Shown here: positions 1,035-21,934 of the stretch, one piece after another
Layout of the letters: each line of letters starts with the position of its first letter
How positions within the stretch are numbered: the stretch's first letter is position 1
Assembly (NCBI GenBank): GCA_024275755.1
Contig: JAJRYN010000158.1
Coordinates: 1-35,064 of the forward strand
Length of the DNA stretch: 35,064 nucleotides
Source: an archaeon
Lineage (GTDB): Archaea > Thermoplasmatota > E2 > UBA202 > JdFR-43
Reading direction: 5' to 3'
Made by a program: the position numbers and the translations under genes
Notes under the pieces: model-generated
Told to the model about the DNA's origin: nothing
What the model saw: only the letters and a program-made list of their open reading frames with translations
Database searches by the model: none

Positions 1035-4000
1035 ATGATTAGAAAAGCTGTTGCATTATTTGCGGTATTGTTAATTTCTGGGATTTTTATTGAAGGCGGA
1101 AATTTTGTTATGAATGAAGACGAAATTTCTAATGGCTTTAACGGTATTTCATGGACTGAGGTTATTCCTATCAAAAAGGTTGCTTTTGTCGGTTTTGATG
1201 AGGAAAGTTATCTGGATGATTATGCATATCTTGCAGCCATACCTGCAACAACCTTTTATAAAAACAATAAATTATATTCATATCCTTTGCTTTTTTATGA
1301 GGAAAGAGAAATAAATGATAAGAAGGAGCTCACGTTAAATGCTAGCCAAGGAATAAAATATTTCATGGAAGATTGGCTTTCTTATTGCAATAATGTTGAA
1401 ATCGAATTAATAAATGCTGAAAATGCAAAAAAATGGGATGCACATTATTCCTACATAAATTCCACAAGCATATATGATGTTGCTGCCAAAATTGCGACAA
1501 AACACTGGTTGAATAGTAAAGAGTGCATGGTTGCGATAGCTGGTGATTTCTATAATGAGAGAAAGATCGATGGAGAAATGAGTACAGAAATTGGTGAGGC
1601 TGCCACTGATTCTTTTTCCATTTCTCTGCCAGAGCCAGAGGGAATAGGAGGTGTATACAAATCTTTTGAAATAAGAGAGCCGTATAAATATATAGAAGTT
1701 AAAGTCGAGTGGAACCCGTTGCTCAGAGGAAAAGATATTGATTTACAGCTTTATGATGATGCAATAGGGATGGTTGATGCATCAGAAAACTGGAATGCCT
1801 TGGCTGGAACATATGAAAGTGTTGAATCTTATATTTTTAATTATGGAACATGGGAAGTCGGCTTAACCAATATGCCCACCGAGGCAATAATGGAAAACAT
1901 ATCAGCAGAGATGTTTAAAGCAAGTAATAGAGAATATGAAGCAGAGATTTACTTATATCCTGGAAAAATAATTGATTTACCGTTCATAAATTTCTTGGCA
2001 AAAAACGTGAGCATAAATATAGAATGTAATAAGAATATCTCATTTGGTGCTTTGCTGCTCTCGGAGAAGAACATAGCATATGAAGCCTTTAAAGGTAAGG
2101 GGCAGCTAAAAATGCATTTCGATGAAATTGGAGGTGGCAATTACTCTATATGCATCTTTGTGATGGAGGACTCCAATAACCTGCAATTTAAGATTGACTA
2201 TGGATGGAATGAAGTCGATAGACAGCAAATAGATTCTTTTGCTTCTGCTTCCCAGGCAGCGATAATGGCTTCTTTAATGGATATTCCATTACTTTATGTT
2301 ACACCCGACAGTATTCCAAATGAAACAAAAAACGCAATGAAGGAATTAGGAGTGGAAAAGGTATATGTTGTGGGAAATTATCCTCACCAGCTGGAAGAAT
2401 TTGTTGAAGTTCAACATTACAGTTTGCAGGAAGCATATGAAAAAATTTATGAAATAACCGGTAGCAACGACGTTGTCTTTTCTTCTGCCAGCCCCTGGAG
2501 TTATTGGCTTGCTGAGGAACTCAAACAAAAAGGTGAAAAGGAGAAGGCACTTTATATTGCTCCTGCTACCTATGCTGCGCTACATCATGGATGTCCTCTT
2601 TTTATCGTTGAAGAACATAAAGAACTGAGTGAGGCAGCAAGCTGGGTAACTGATTTCTGGAAGAGAGATAGCAGGGCGAGGCAGCCGCCTTCGGTGGCAT
2701 GCATGTATCTGATGGCAAAACAGGTTTATGATTTTCTGATTGCTCTGGGTATAGATAAGGAGGGAAAAGAAGACATTCTTACTGTGGCTGGACAGTTTGA
2801 CATTGGTATAGGATGGGACAGAGCTTTTGTGGGGAAAGCTAACCCAGGCAGGATACTGGGCACTCCTGTCGACACGGCATACTGGATTTGCAGGAGCATT
2901 TTTTATCCTGCTTTAATTTTTCAGAATCCTGCTTTAAGAGAGGAGGGAATAACCTTGATAAATGGAAGTAAAAGCAGAAGAGACGCTCTGGGGAGACTTC
3001 ATATAATAAAGCCAAGTATGGAGGAACATTTTTATTATCCTGTATTGCAGACATGGGTCTCTTACTGTCATGAATTTAATAAAGAAGCAAGCAAGTATTG
3101 GGGGTGTAAATATACAACCAGGGATGGCATTACACCCTATGAAACACCCTCACCATACCGAATAGATGAAGGAGTTACTGACAAAGTTGGTGCATACTGG
3201 CCAGATATGAGTACTTCAGAGGTTGTCCCATTTTATCTGAAAAAACTTGGATATGCCAATGTTTTTTCAACCAATTTTACCGCTACAATGGATAATTTGA
3301 ATCGTGGAGCTATAATGTGGTTTGAGGGAATGCACGCCAGCCATGCAAGCTCGGGAGTAGTTGGATTCTGGGATCCAGATGCAAACTGGACAAAAATGTT
3401 CTATTACTTTAAGGATTTGCCACTTATAGGCAATGTTCTCAAAAACAAAAAAATAAATACAGAGCCAAACCCATGGCGCGGATACGAATTTGGACTATGG
3501 CGACAGGCATTTTTTAGATGGGGTATTGGCAGTAAAAGCACACAAATTTTCCAGACGGGTAGCACAGAAAATCCAGATGTAATTGTGATGGATAAATACA
3601 TTGGATGGGATTGGCGCGCGGGCATGTATGGCGATGGAGTCGTGATAGCCATATTGCAACAGGTTGCCACAGAAATAAAAACAGGATATGATATTGATGC
3701 CGCACTGAAAAATTTACATTCATGTGGCATAAATGCTGGCATATCATGCTATATTGCTGCCACATATCTCCACATAACCCTCATAAGGCATGGCTCAGTT
3801 TTCCAGATTATTGATCCATGGCTCACATCGTGGTATTGTAATTTTGCTGTAGAAATGTTTGCTCGATATCTTGCAATGGGCTATACTGCTGGAGAAGCGT
3901 ATGAAAAAGCAATAAGTCATGTTGGTATTGAATATCTGACAGGCAAGTGGTGGTGGGATATTTGTGAAAATGTATGTTATTTTGGCGATCCAAGCCTGAG

Positions 4001-4076
4001 AGTATGGAGTCCTGTATATTCGTGGGAAGAACCCGATGCCATTGAGCCTGAAATAATAGGAGAGCACGTCATTTAA
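1035..4076 (+). CDS. Large secreted protein, CWB2-like segment plus divergent C25 (gingipain)-like C-terminal region
   Basis: 1013 aa with N-terminal signal-like hydrophobic segment. CWB2-like segment AAIMASLMDIPLLYVTPDSIPNETKNAMKELGVEKVYVVGN. C-terminal VCYFGDPSLRVWSP resembles the end of C25-type domains. Confidence 0.55.
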   Translation: MIRKAVALFAVLLISGIFIEGGNFVMNEDEISNGFNGISWTEVIPIKKVAFVGFDEESYLDDYAYLAAIPATTFYKNNKLYSYPLLFYEEREINDKKELTLNASQGIKYFMEDWLSYCNNVEIELINAENAKKWDAHYSYINSTSIYDVAAKIATKHWLNSKECMVAIAGDFYNERKIDGEMSTEIGEAATDSFSISLPEPEGIGGVYKSFEIREPYKYIEVKVEWNPLLRGKDIDLQLYDDAIGMVDASENWNALAGTYESVESYIFNYGTWEVGLTNMPTEAIMENISAEMFKASNREYEAEIYLYPGKIIDLPFINFLAKNVSINIECNKNISFGALLLSEKNIAYEAFKGKGQLKMHFDEIGGGNYSICIFVMEDSNNLQFKIDYGWNEVDRQQIDSFASASQAAIMASLMDIPLLYVTPDSIPNETKNAMKELGVEKVYVVGNYPHQLEEFVEVQHYSLQEAYEKIYEITGSNDVVFSSASPWSYWLAEELKQKGEKEKALYIAPATYAALHHGCPLFIVEEHKELSEAASWVTDFWKRDSRARQPPSVACMYLMAKQVYDFLIALGIDKEGKEDILTVAGQFDIGIGWDRAFVGKANPGRILGTPVDTAYWICRSIFYPALIFQNPALREEGITLINGSKSRRDALGRLHIIKPSMEEHFYYPVLQTWVSYCHEFNKEASKYWGCKYTTRDGITPYETPSPYRIDEGVTDKVGAYWPDMSTSEVVPFYLKKLGYANVFSTNFTATMDNLNRGAIMWFEGMHASHASSGVVGFWDPDANWTKMFYYFKDLPLIGNVLKNKKINTEPNPWRGYEFGLWRQAFFRWGIGSKSTQIFQTGSTENPDVIVMDKYIGWDWRAGMYGDGVVIAILQQVATEIKTGYDIDAALKNLHSCGINAGISCYIAATYLHITLIRHGSVFQIIDPWLTSWYCNFAVEMFARYLAMGYTAGEAYEKAISHVGIEYLTGKWWWDICENVCYFGDPSLRVWSPVYSWEEPDAIEPEIIGEHVI

Positions 4077-4092
4077 ATATCTTTAATTCTCT

Positions 4093-4934
4093 GGTGCTGT
4101 TAACTTAACGAAATTTTTCGATAAAAATATGCACCCCACCCCATTGATTACATTTTGAGGTGAACAAAATGCGAGGGGATGGGGTGCAATTATTAAAATA
4201 CTTACTGAAAGAAAAATCTATCGTTATTAGAGAAAGAACACCAATTGAGATAATGTTATACAGCGTTTTCCTTTATCTTTGCAAACTTTCTCTAAGAGAT
4301 GTTGTAATGGCCATTCGTATTTTCGTTAAAAGAAGTAGAACTGCCATATGGAAATGGATACAGAAATTTGGCAATGTAGTTAAAGAACATATTGCAGATG
4401 AAATGCCCAATATTGTCGTCATTGATGAAACAATACTTCAGATAGGAGATACAAAATTCTGGTTCTGGTTTGTTCTGGATCCAGAGAACAAAAAGATAGT
4501 TCTTTTCATGATAAGCAGAAGTAGAACAGATTTTGCCTGTAAAAAACTTGTTTATAAAATGTGGGAAATGTATGGAAAATTACCATCTATAGCATTGACA
4601 GATGGTGGAGCATGGTATTCGATGCTAAGAAGATATGGAATCCAGCATGAAATTATTTCTGGAGGAATTAGAAACTATATTGAAAGAGTTATTGAAACAA
4701 TAAAAGATAGAACTAGAATCTTTGACCATTATTTCCCAAGTAAAAGATGGAAAATGATGCATGTTGAATTGTGGTTATCTCTTTACATTTTCTATTACAA
4801 CTGGATACGGAGTCATTTGAGTTTATCAAATAATTCTCCTGTTTTCCATAGCAGGAAAATAAAAATAGAAAATGAATACGAAAGATTTATAGTAGCATTG
4901 CAGGAGGTGCTGCAATGCTAAAGTTAACAGCACC
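4093..4934 (+). mobile_element. Complete insertion sequence, 842 bp, IS6-like
   Basis: Perfect 14-bp terminal inverted repeats GGTGCTGTTAACTT (4093-4106) and AAGTTAACAGCACC (4921-4934) enclosing one DDE-type transposase ORF. No target-site duplication found (flanks aattctct / ctgcgatg). Confidence 0.9.
4169..4921 (+). CDS. IS transposase, DDE domain (IS6-like)
   Basis: NIVVIDETILQIGDTKFWFWFVLDPENKKIVLFMIS...IALTDGGAWYSML...RNYIERVIETIKDRTRIFDHYFPS. ATG at 4169 preceded by GAGGTG SD-like motif (track gives GTG at 4160). Stop codon overlaps the right TIR by one base. Confidence 0.85.
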   Translation: MRGDGVQLLKYLLKEKSIVIRERTPIEIMLYSVFLYLCKLSLRDVVMAIRIFVKRSRTAIWKWIQKFGNVVKEHIADEMPNIVVIDETILQIGDTKFWFWFVLDPENKKIVLFMISRSRTDFACKKLVYKMWEMYGKLPSIALTDGGAWYSMLRRYGIQHEIISGGIRNYIERVIETIKDRTRIFDHYFPSKRWKMMHVELWLSLYIFYYNWIRSHLSLSNNSPVFHSRKIKIENEYERFIVALQEVLQC

Positions 4935-5030
4935 CTGCGATGGACATAAATACTTTTTTGTTGGTTTATCACTACTCATTACATAATTTATATAATATCT
5001 ATACAACATAAATTCAGTATAGCCATATAC

Positions 5031-5876
5031 TCAACTAATATATTTTTTCTTGTTGTTTTCGATGATGAAGAGCTTTCCTTTTCTTTTCGCTTTTGCTGCT
5101 TTTCTTCGCTGCACCTCATTGAATTCTTCTATGCTTATTATTGCCTCATGCTCCCCTTTAAAAATGAAATCTTCCCATTCCATCAAACCACAGTAAACTG
5201 GATTGGAGAGAATGCGAGATATTGTTTTTCTATCCCACCTGCCACCTTTCTTCGTTCTTATTCCTCGCCTGTTAAGCTCATCAGCTATGTCTTTCATGCT
5301 CATGCCATCAACATACATCTCAAATATCTCTCTCGCAACTCTCAACTCCTTTTCCACACCCCGCAACATCCCTCCATCATATTCATAGCCATATGGCGCT
5401 GGCGAGCCAAGCAAACCCTTGCCTTGCTTTGCTTTTTGGCGCATGCCGTCATAGACGCGCTCACCAATCTGCTCGCTTTCCAACTGGGCTATACGCTGTA
5501 TAATGTCCATGACAAATCTTCCCATCGCCGTGGATGTATCCAAACTTTCTGTCATTGAAACGAATTCTTTATTTTTGTTTCGCAACTCTTCCATCATGAG
5601 CATGAAATTTTTTGAATTTCTGTGTATACGATCCATTTTCATCACAAGCAGCACATCCCATTTATCAATGTCCTCCATCATTTTTTGGTAAGCAGGACGG
5701 CGAATATCACGCCCGCTGTAGCCATCATCAACATACTCGCCAGCTATCTCCCAGCCTCTCGCCTTGCAGTAGCTACGCAGCTTCTCTAGCTGACTATCCA
5801 GGCTAAAGCCCTCTTTCGCCTGGTCTTCAGTGCTGACACGAGCATAAATCGCAACTTTTTTTACTCCATTCTCCAT
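5031..5876 (-). CDS. Serine recombinase (resolvase N-terminal plus Recombinase domain, short form)
   Basis: VAIYARVSTEDQAKEGFSLDSQLEKLRSYCKARGW...MKMDRIHRNSKNF...GRFVMDIIQRIAQLESEQIGERV; C-terminal AREIFEMYVDGMSMKDIADELNRRGIRTKKGGRWDRKTISRILSNPVYCGLMEW. 281 aa. Confidence 0.93.
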   Translation of the reverse strand: MENGVKKVAIYARVSTEDQAKEGFSLDSQLEKLRSYCKARGWEIAGEYVDDGYSGRDIRRPAYQKMMEDIDKWDVLLVMKMDRIHRNSKNFMLMMEELRNKNKEFVSMTESLDTSTAMGRFVMDIIQRIAQLESEQIGERVYDGMRQKAKQGKGLLGSPAPYGYEYDGGMLRGVEKELRVAREIFEMYVDGMSMKDIADELNRRGIRTKKGGRWDRKTISRILSNPVYCGLMEWEDFIFKGEHEAIISIEEFNEVQRRKAAKAKRKGKLFIIENNKKKYIS

Positions 5877-10488: not shown

Positions 10489-10499
10489 AAAATAAAAAG

Positions 10500-10573
10500 T
10501 GGGCCCGCCGAGATTTGAACTCGGGTCTATGACTCCCGAAGCCACAAGGATAACCAAGCTACCCCACGGGCCC
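10500..10573 (-). tRNA. tRNA-Pro(CGG)
   Basis: Minus-strand cloverleaf: acceptor GGGCCCG/CGGGCCC, anticodon stem GTGGC/GTCAT with loop TTCGGGA, T arm CCGAG-TTCAAAT-CTCGG, discriminator A; 74 nt, CCA not encoded. Confidence 0.93.
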
Positions 10574-16133: not shown

Positions 16134-16292
16134 GCCGCCGTAGCTTAGCCCGGTAGAGCGTCTGATTCGTATAGCCCGAGCCCTTTAGAAGAGGGCTTCA
16201 CCCCAAAATGAGGCTCCGGAAAATCAGAAGGTCGCGGGTTCAAATGCATTGCTTTGCTTTGCAAAGCATGCCTGAAAATCCCGCCGGCGGCT
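16134..16292 (+). tRNA. tRNA-Thr(CGT) with two predicted introns (16172-16222 at 37/38; 16245-16278 at 59/60)
   Basis: Acceptor GCCGCCG/CGGCGGC, D arm GCTT/GAGC, anticodon stem TCTGA/TCAGA with loop TTCGTA|A, T arm GCGGG-TTCAAA|T-CCCGC, discriminator T. Removing 51 + 34 nt leaves a 74-nt cloverleaf. Confidence 0.88.
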
Positions 16293-19213: not shown

Positions 19214-21913
19214 TTATCCATTATTTACTGGCTGATAAGGGTTAAATGCTGGGTCTCCATACAATGTGAATTCATGGAGGCAAACATATTTCTTGTCCAT
19301 ATATTTTCCATATTCAAATCTTGCATTCGTGTTTGTATCTGTATCCGTATTACCTAATGGCGTATCCAGAGGAGGAGTCCAGAGGAATGTTGAGTTTGCA
19401 TCTTTCGGAAGATACTTGTTCTTTGCATTCTTCAACGCCATTCCAACTGTGCTATCATTCTGTATCAAATCGAGAACAAAGTCCTCTGCCACCACTGCAC
19501 CAAAGTGTGGCTCTGGATATTCTCCATTTATTAGCCGATTAAGCAAAGCTTTCACAAATCCTTTGGCTCCAAATCCCTTGAATATTAAACCTGGCTCTAA
19601 ATAGCCTGGATCTGCAGTAACACGAGTTGCGCCAATGTATGCATTTACACCTGCATGAAGATAGGCCTGACTCAGGCAATTTTCTGGAATCAATCCATCT
19701 GTTCTTCCTGTTATACAGCTCAAAACGAATATAACGCTTGGCCCGTAGTCCATGTTAACGACATATCTCACAGCATATGCTCCCTTGCTTGACAATCCGC
19801 TTGAAATGCCCAAGCCACCTAGGAAGCGGGAAAGCCATGTTATTGGCGGGAATCCTCTTGAATCCAGCAATACATCTCCAGATTCATACAGGTAATAGAT
19901 ACCATGATTGAAGACAAATATCAGATTGCTGTTCTCCTGATATTTTCCTCCCTTAACAACCCTGTCCCCACTGATAAATTCAACGAAACGTGGGAATGGG
20001 ATATTAAGGCGACTTGTATATTTAGCCAAATCTTCAAAGCCCTCGCGCTGTGAAGCAAGTAAATGTGTCCTCCTTACATTATATCCTCCTTTCTCCATAT
20101 CATGAGCTAGCCTTAAGTTAATAAGGAGGCTCTCTCCACTTGGCCATTTTGTTGGTTCTTTATGTCCTGTAATCATATTGGTTATGGTGGTGATTATTGG
20201 AATCCACTGGAATTCCAAGCCGGCACCAGTCTGAACAGTTGCATTGTTCTTCCAATCGCCAAGCTGCTGAATGATTTTGTCATAAAAGACGGTTCTTGCT
20301 ATTAGGGCTGAGCAATCTTCTGCATCATAACCAGTTACTCTGCCAACAGCATTTTCCATTTCTGGCCAGTATGTGAATGAATTATTCTCAACATCATTTG
20401 GCTTTGGATCTATATCACCATAGATAAAATCACTTGGAAGTAGCACACCAATAATATTATCGCTGTCTGGATTGTAATAATAATACATTGGCACCATCGT
20501 TGGATCAGCCATTATTGCAATATAAATTGGATTGTTTCTGTAATGCCTCCATAATGCTTCTGTATCATCAGCAGAAATATTTGCAATTTTTGCAAGCAAC
20601 CTGTTGAGCTGTTCATGTATCTTCATAACGTGCTCATTGCATGGATCAACTAATGCTTCATTGGTTGATGGATATACCACGCCTTCTATGCCTATGCTTT
20701 CATTACCAGCAAATGCAAATTCTGGCTTTGCAAATACAATGCCACGATGATAGGCTGTCAGATAAGGTGCCATGCTGGAAAGATTGTTCATTAATGGCTC
20801 CAGGGGTGAGTCAACTTCTTCCACCTTTATTTTCAATCTGTATTTTCCATTCAGAGTTGAAACCCATCTTCCTAGGACTTGTGTAACATATTTTCCTGGC
20901 TTGTTATATATTATTGTTTCGACATGAACTTTGTCAACAACAATGTCTCCGTTCTCTACTTCTGGTATACCAGCTGCTGTGGATGTATAAACATAAACTT
21001 CGTCATCCGGATTGAATATGAGCAGAATCAAATCATCTCCAAGCTCGCTCACGTGCTCAGAATTTTCATTTATCAAATCTATTTTGAGGCGGGCGTATTC
21101 ATAGTCCTCTGGAATAACAAATGTATTTATGCTGAATAATCCGCTCAGCAGAGCATTTACAGTTTGAGCAGGAAGAATGTTGATTGAAGCTGTTTCATTC
21201 TCAAATTCATATTCTGTTTCATTCAACACCCTAACCTTTGTTACATCCAACGGGTTGGTAATTGTTACATAATCTATATCTCCAAATTTATTTTTAACAA
21301 GCTCGATAACAAAATCATTTATTTCCTCAACACTGTCAAACCTCCATGTCATTTCATGTCCTTCTAAATTGCCACATATAAAGGTATATTTCACTCCCAG
21401 CTTTTTAAGAATGCTTCTCACATTATTTGTATCATTTGTTACAAAAATCGGTATATTCAGATAGCTGGCAATAGGAGCAGCAACTATACCAAGTTCATAC
21501 CCACGCTGGCTATTTTCTATGAGCAAGGCTGCATCGCTCTTCTTCCATGCCTCGCTGAGCTCAATGGATACATTTTCTGGCGAGCCTCCTCTTATTTCTT
21601 TATATGAAGCAGGATAAAAATCAATGAATCTTTCAACTGGTTTCGATGGATTATCAAAATTTTCTACAAGCAATGGTTCAACATGCTGACCCTCTTCATC
21701 ATAATACAATGCTACAGGAGTAGCTATCACTGCATAAAATGGATTTTCCTCACTTACAATTACTGGCGTTGCTCCATAGTTCCTTTCCGACTTTATTTTA
21801 TCGATGGTTTCCATGCTGAATCCACTTACTTCCGTAAACTTCTCAACACAACCAGTTAATACAGGCAAAGAAATCGCTAACACTACCAGTATTGCCAACT
21901 TTTTCCTTTCCAT
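19214..21913 (-). CDS. Lipoprotein with CWB2-like segment and C25 (gingipain)-like peptidase domain
   Basis: Start MERKKLAILVVLAISLPVLTGCVEK gives a lipobox LTGC. CWB2-like AAPIASYLNIPIFVTNDTNNVRSILKKLGVKYTFICGN. C25-like FNHG...VIFVLSCITGRTDG...GVNAYIGATRV...LYGDPAFNPY. The track start at 22225 overlaps the divergent gene. Confidence 0.75.
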   Translation of the reverse strand: MERKKLAILVVLAISLPVLTGCVEKFTEVSGFSMETIDKIKSERNYGATPVIVSEENPFYAVIATPVALYYDEEGQHVEPLLVENFDNPSKPVERFIDFYPASYKEIRGGSPENVSIELSEAWKKSDAALLIENSQRGYELGIVAAPIASYLNIPIFVTNDTNNVRSILKKLGVKYTFICGNLEGHEMTWRFDSVEEINDFVIELVKNKFGDIDYVTITNPLDVTKVRVLNETEYEFENETASINILPAQTVNALLSGLFSINTFVIPEDYEYARLKIDLINENSEHVSELGDDLILLIFNPDDEVYVYTSTAAGIPEVENGDIVVDKVHVETIIYNKPGKYVTQVLGRWVSTLNGKYRLKIKVEEVDSPLEPLMNNLSSMAPYLTAYHRGIVFAKPEFAFAGNESIGIEGVVYPSTNEALVDPCNEHVMKIHEQLNRLLAKIANISADDTEALWRHYRNNPIYIAIMADPTMVPMYYYYNPDSDNIIGVLLPSDFIYGDIDPKPNDVENNSFTYWPEMENAVGRVTGYDAEDCSALIARTVFYDKIIQQLGDWKNNATVQTGAGLEFQWIPIITTITNMITGHKEPTKWPSGESLLINLRLAHDMEKGGYNVRRTHLLASQREGFEDLAKYTSRLNIPFPRFVEFISGDRVVKGGKYQENSNLIFVFNHGIYYLYESGDVLLDSRGFPPITWLSRFLGGLGISSGLSSKGAYAVRYVVNMDYGPSVIFVLSCITGRTDGLIPENCLSQAYLHAGVNAYIGATRVTADPGYLEPGLIFKGFGAKGFVKALLNRLINGEYPEPHFGAVVAEDFVLDLIQNDSTVGMALKNAKNKYLPKDANSTFLWTPPLDTPLGNTDTDTNTNARFEYGKYMDKKYVCLHEFTLYGDPAFNPYQPVNNG

Positions 21914-21934
21914 ACCTATCCCTCTTAATATGTT

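Follow-up and report, generated by a model that had tools for sequence, protein, structure and literature searches.

The window analysed here, the entire 35,064-nt contig JAJRYN010000158.1 of an archaeal genome assembly (GCA_024275755.1), carries a tRNA-Thr(CGT) gene that is interrupted twice, once at the canonical position 37/38 and once in the T-loop, at position 59/60 (Table 1). Deleting both introns leaves a 74-nt sequence that ARAGORN reads as a perfect tRNA-Thr(CGT); the same program finds no tRNA in the 159-nt gene or after deletion of just one intron, and the Rfam tRNA model gives the uncut gene 13.1 bits against a 29-bit cut-off. Both tools, run on the window, missed the gene, as is expected with two introns. 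At each intron, a 4-bp central helix and a 3-nt bulge at either exon-intron junction make up the archaeal bulge-helix-bulge (BHB) motif, and both motifs are present in the minimum-energy RNAfold structure of the entire precursor. The isolated T-arm folds at −23.4 kcal/mol (z = −4.2), a value equalled by none of 200 shuffles. An earlier note on this DNA, made from the letters alone, had proposed a two-intron gene with these BHB motifs; ARAGORN, RNAfold and the orthologues agree with it, its coordinates were correct to the base, and our sole addition is a single extra unpaired C (16272) that separates the central helix of BHB 2 from the inner one.

Table 1. Exons, introns and predicted splicing motifs of the tRNA-Thr(CGT) gene (positions in the window)
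Feature	Position	Strand	Basis or remark
tRNA-Thr(CGT) gene, 159-nt precursor, discriminator T at 16292	16134..16292	+	sequence, ARAGORN
Exon 1: acceptor 5′ strand, D-arm, anticodon stem 5′ strand, anticodon CGT, A37	16134..16171	+	
Intron 1, 51 nt, canonical position 37/38	16172..16222	+	BHB TTCG/CGGA, 3-nt bulges; same site in G001, G003, G010, G017
BHB 1 central helix, 5′ strand TTCG	16166..16169	+	pairs with 16217-16220 CGGA; RNAfold
BHB 1 central helix, 3′ strand CGGA	16217..16220	+	RNAfold
Exon 2: A38, anticodon stem 3′ strand, variable loop, T-stem 5′ strand, T54-A59	16223..16244	+	
T-stem 5′ strand GCGGG, the BHB 2 outer helix	16234..16238	+	pairs with 16280-16284
T54-A57 TTCA, exon half of the BHB 2 central helix	16239..16242	+	pairs with 16273-16276; position 57 covariation, 115 introns
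BHB 2 5′ bulge AAT; predicted cut 16244/16245	16243..16245	+	
Intron 2, 34 nt, T-loop position 59/60, member of a lineage-wide T-loop intron family	16245..16278	+	
BHB 2 central helix, intron strand TGAA	16273..16276	+	
BHB 2 3′ bulge AAT; predicted cut 16278/16279	16277..16279	+	
Exon 3: T60, T-stem 3′ strand CCCGC, acceptor 3′ strand, discriminator	16279..16292	+	

Orthologues, placed by the kinship labels supplied with the genome collection, include doubly split, singly split and uninterrupted genes. Both introns are present in G001; the 37/38 intron is accompanied by an empty T-loop site in G003 (same genus; empty T-loop sequence GGGTTCAAATCCCGCC), G010 (same family) and G017 (same order); and the intronless Thr(CGT) gene of G012, from the same family, differs from the predicted mature tRNA at just two bases of the D-loop. 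Because intron-free and empty-site orthologues exist, the gene structure is not a product of chance, and their comparison fixes the insertion point to within a few bases, which stay ambiguous owing to a repeated AAAT. Occupancy varies at other loci as well. In a single genus, G000 carries T-loop introns in Thr(CGT), Cys, Ala(CGC) and Arg(CCT), all of them sites that have no insert in G003, and the His gene, empty in G000, contains one in G001-G003. These patterns point to both gain and loss of T-loop introns inside a genus, with the two not always distinguishable in a given case. Separately, a tRNA-Pro(CGG) gene on the minus strand of the window (10499-10573) is without a T-loop intron, and its counterparts in G005, G011 and G012 carry one.

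A decayed pseudogene, or a tRNA that retains the insert as an enlarged T-loop, would be in keeping with a gene that standard tRNA finders miss. The earlier note had allowed for a decayed copy beside a second, intact Thr(CGT) gene; our search found no second one in the genome (assembly rated 94.8% complete), in which the remaining Thr genes have the anticodons GGT and TGT. Every gene found here for Thr(CGT), Cys(GCA) and Lys(TTT) is split, and removal of their introns must therefore work for the organism to live. All stems of the Thr(CGT) gene are intact, compensatory pairs link exon and intron, and the structure is conserved in G001. Decay or retention is accordingly very improbable, and the T-loop intron is in all likelihood spliced out.

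The insert belongs to a family. By BLAST, 57 bases of the T-loop insert region are 95% identical to a stretch of the tRNA-Ala(CGC) gene of the same genome. A DNA pattern for such introns gave too many chance matches, and we used instead a covariance model built from 14 insert-bearing T-arms. It found 115 T-loop inserts of 13-50 nt in 21 of the 22 genomes of the window's order, at 1-14 per genome, seven of them in this genome, a lineage-wide spread that the earlier note overlooked while suggesting that other isoacceptors be checked. About one in six tRNA genes of the order has a T-loop intron. The sole genome of the order with no match, G018, is 71% complete, and EndA was not found there either. 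Deleting the insert restores a complete cloverleaf tRNA in 113 of the 115 cases, as excision does for the window gene; of the two others, one lies near a contig end and one is a tRNA fragment (the G004 tRNA-Arg(CCT) repeat discussed below). The hosts serve at least 14 amino acids; ARAGORN anticodon labels are unreliable where a 37/38 intron is also present (the window gene is labelled Leu-CAA), and census labels such as Pyl, Stop and Phe were disregarded. The model found no T-loop insert in 38 genomes from other orders of the class and, among 392 genomes sampled across the phylum, one to four matches in nine genomes outside the order, counts that are too low to an extent, the model having been trained on the window's order. 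Introns at 59/60 are thus not strictly confined to that order. The few inserts of G313, G076, G259 and G262 (loci L261-L271) lie in other families of Thermoplasmatota, and those of G313 are just 13-14 nt long. One contig end in the collection (L070, G000:C149:1-123) joins a tRNA piece to an inverted copy of itself and is probably an assembly artefact.

Within the family, the exon is part of the splicing motif. All five T-stem pairs form in 115 of 115 cases, and the central helix is complete (4/4) in 97 and lacks one pair (3/4) in 18. The purine at position 57 faces intron position −6, counted from the intron's 3′ end, as A-T in 52 introns, G-C in 40, G-T in six and A-C in two, and is opposite A in 15 (mismatches and wobbles total 23). 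A Watson-Crick match with base 57 occurs in 80% of introns at −6 versus 0-46% at adjacent intron positions, and when similar introns in A57 and G57 hosts are compared, the intron base is T versus C, respectively, in 113 of 142 pairs, which are not independent of one another. This covariation between exon base 57 and the intron indicates that the BHB central helix is under selection.

Likeness among introns crosses the boundaries between tRNA species. At 75% identity or more, there are 331 cross-isoacceptor intron pairs, and 1,500 shuffled pairs peak at 77%. If the 59/60 introns had arisen independently in each tRNA from short hairpin insertions and were alike through the BHB constraint alone, a constrained 3′ end would follow from its pairing with the exon, and the shortest introns (13-20 nt) do share little beyond that end. 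The likeness, however, extends through the unconstrained middle of the introns (TGCAACTTGCCTGCAAGTTGCGTTTCC and variants), the 331 pairs exceed the 99% level of the shuffles, and in G013 the Gly and Arg(CCT) tRNAs contain an identical 45-nt intron, so that we regard independent origin as improbable. A more than chance resemblance between introns of unlike tRNA genes, together with recent gain as read from empty sites in close relatives, marks these elements as translocatable introns; the comparisons indicate that near-identical copies spread between tRNA genes and are lost.

Two sets of observations bear on how they move. The Arg(CCT) gene of G013 has a Gly-type T-stem, CCGGG, in place of the GCGGG found in nine other genomes with an intron at that site; combined with the identical intron, this is what conversion of the whole T-arm would be expected to leave. 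More generally, the T-stem is shared by 13 of the 19 most alike within-genome intron pairs versus 55 of 380 overall. In G004, the 3′ part of tRNA-Arg(CCT) occurs as a 75-nt direct repeat that contains the T-loop intron (G004:C4:16809-16883 and 38824-38898; loci L123, L275, L323, L324). Between the two copies lie about 22 kb that encode terminase, portal, tape-measure and tail-tube proteins and, at the end bearing the tRNA fragment, a tyrosine integrase. The region is an integrated head-tailed virus (provirus) whose att site carries the intron.

The earlier note had concluded that a T-loop intron implies a splicing endonuclease of relaxed specificity and had suggested determining the enzyme's architecture. 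The genome encodes one EndA of 340 residues with two repeats and the catalytic residues Y279, H287 and K318 in the second; no other subunit was found, and this is the α′2 arrangement. The host is of Thermoplasmata type, as had been surmised: its EndA is 96-97% identical to those of Thermoplasmatales archaeon JdFR-43 and Ca. Thermoplasmatota S5B3_HD70. For the latter (97% identical), a model predicted as a single chain (predicted local distance difference test score 78) matches the EndA structures of M. kandleri, A. fulgidus and T. acidophilum (2gjw, 1rlv, 2ohc). EndA was found in 35 of 41 genomes searched. With two exceptions, a genome that has a second copy and another where the match covered a single repeat, each of the 35 has one two-repeat gene and no further EndA subunit, and the enzymes of these genomes are without an insertion of CSL or ASL size (defined below). 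Broad specificity was judged by an 11-18-residue lysine-bearing loop before the LSLxEA segment, the Crenarchaea-specific loop (CSL) or its ARMAN-specific counterpart (ASL). In a comparison of the window genome's EndA with those of S. tokodaii (2cv8) and A. fulgidus, no insertion of that size is seen in either repeat: the segments FIGREFGK-YTQLSLMEA and CFGK-FNGKLKLTLIET are uninterrupted where the S. tokodaii enzyme has 12 additional residues. A gene for RtcB is also present (614 bits). With a plain two-repeat enzyme and a near-canonical motif, the implication of relaxed specificity is not supported.

We posit the following course of events. The gene would be transcribed into its 159-nt precursor, in which homodimeric α′2 EndA would cut the BHB motifs at 37/38 and 59/60, and the exons would be joined, with RtcB the likely ligase, into the 74-nt tRNA. 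The homodimeric EndA of Ferroplasma (Thermoplasmatales) cleaves minimal BHB RNA that has no tRNA body (PMC8707768), so an α′2 enzyme should cut a canonical BHB anywhere. In the T-loop, the bases T54-T55-C56-R57 and A58-A59, nearly invariant among tRNAs, make up one of the two central-helix strands and the greater part of the 5′ bulge. Because of this near-invariance, the intron would fit almost any tRNA: with half a BHB formed by exon bases, an intron that ends in YGAA-AA would build a near-canonical motif in most tRNAs, and a relaxed endonuclease would therefore not be required. The family (13-50 nt) may have entered the ancestor of the window's order, after which introns would have moved between unlike tRNA genes at the DNA level, most likely by homology-guided gene conversion of the whole T-arm, and would sometimes have been carried by integrating elements with att sites that include the intron. 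We hold it highly likely that the window gene is a two-intron tRNA cut by EndA and joined by RtcB, with a T-loop intron from a spreading family and no need of a relaxed endonuclease.

Several points weigh against this account. All the genomes are metagenome assemblies. In 14 of the 18 imperfect central helices G57 stands opposite A, and the inner helix has a one-nucleotide irregularity in 75 of the 115 introns; such motifs may demand more tolerance than a strict α′2 enzyme affords. The central helix is itself part of the covariance model, which can favour paired matches, and shared T-stems could also reflect easier transfer between tRNAs that were already alike. The imperfect and irregular helices would be accommodated if EndA had broadened its specificity by means besides the CSL or ASL, for example the lysine-rich VKNGKK of the second repeat, which is three residues longer than in A. 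fulgidus EndA at that place. We rejected VKNGKK as a CSL equivalent: its location is C-terminal to the site of the CSL and ASL, and similar lengths occur in genomes of the class that are without T-loop introns. Moreover, the complete central helix of 97 of the 115 motifs needs no special enzyme, and we consider a broadened EndA unlikely. Beyond the splicing of plain BHB motifs by α′2 EndA, we advance more tentatively, as a possibility somewhat short of even, that this is an active mobile family adapted to the universally conserved T-loop, spliceable by a plain enzyme from nearly any tRNA and propagated through gene conversion of T-arms and through integrating viruses with intron-bearing att sites.

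Elsewhere in the window, a weak DDE transposase match beside a serine recombinase with Resolvase and Recombinase domains (4160-5876) is likely an insertion element. Two very large secreted-looking proteins are encoded at 1035-4076, where no Pfam family was matched, and at 19214-21931, where peptidase family C25 was.

The position 59/60 is a known archaeal tRNA intron site (PMC4090602). Reviews link non-canonical archaeal tRNA introns to a change in the endonuclease, be it an (αβ)2 or ε2 architecture or an added specificity loop; lineages with α4 or α2 enzymes have mostly single introns at the canonical position (PMC4090602), with Korarchaeum and its loop-bearing enzyme as the sole α2 exception (PMC4033280). 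The window's order contradicts this canonical-only rule for α2-type lineages (PMC4090602, PMC4033280); we found no paper on its tRNA introns in the literature searched. An order with plain α′2 EndA and one to 14 T-loop introns per genome, some in indispensable tRNAs, makes the enzyme-first idea testable and offers an alternative, in which an exon that supplies half a BHB lets introns spread with no new enzyme. Empty and filled sites within a genus, together with an intron-bearing att site, provide a concrete system for the study of tRNA intron movement. There is also a practical consequence: most such tRNAs score below the cut-off in standard searches, and Cys or Thr(CGT) can seem to be missing from genomes of this kind.

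A close parallel is offered by the translocatable introns of Thermoproteales (PMC4033280; Fujishima 2010 and Sugahara 2008, known to us through the citing reviews PMC4033280 and PMC4090602), which are likewise short, alike BHB introns in unlike tRNAs, several per gene and at non-canonical positions. The present family differs in its Thermoplasmatota host, whose α′2 EndA has no loop and is not the CSL-bearing (αβ)2 enzyme of Thermoproteales, and in its place at 59/60 (other non-canonical positions were not systematically searched). Korarchaeum also combines a homodimeric EndA with non-canonical introns, but its α2 enzyme is reportedly loop-bearing (PMC4033280), whereas that described here is loopless. 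The ARMAN (archaeal Richmond Mine acidophilic nanoorganisms) archaea with ε2 EndA have non-canonical introns outside Thermoproteota too (PMC6379350, PMC12397907); the ARMAN-2 enzyme, however, has three units and an ASL, in contrast to two repeats and no ASL here. Finally, non-canonical introns have surged lineage-wide in Atabeyarchaeia and Freyarchaeia (PMC11291895) as in the window's order, with 92-95% of tRNA genes split in those groups versus a T-loop intron in about one gene in six in this one.
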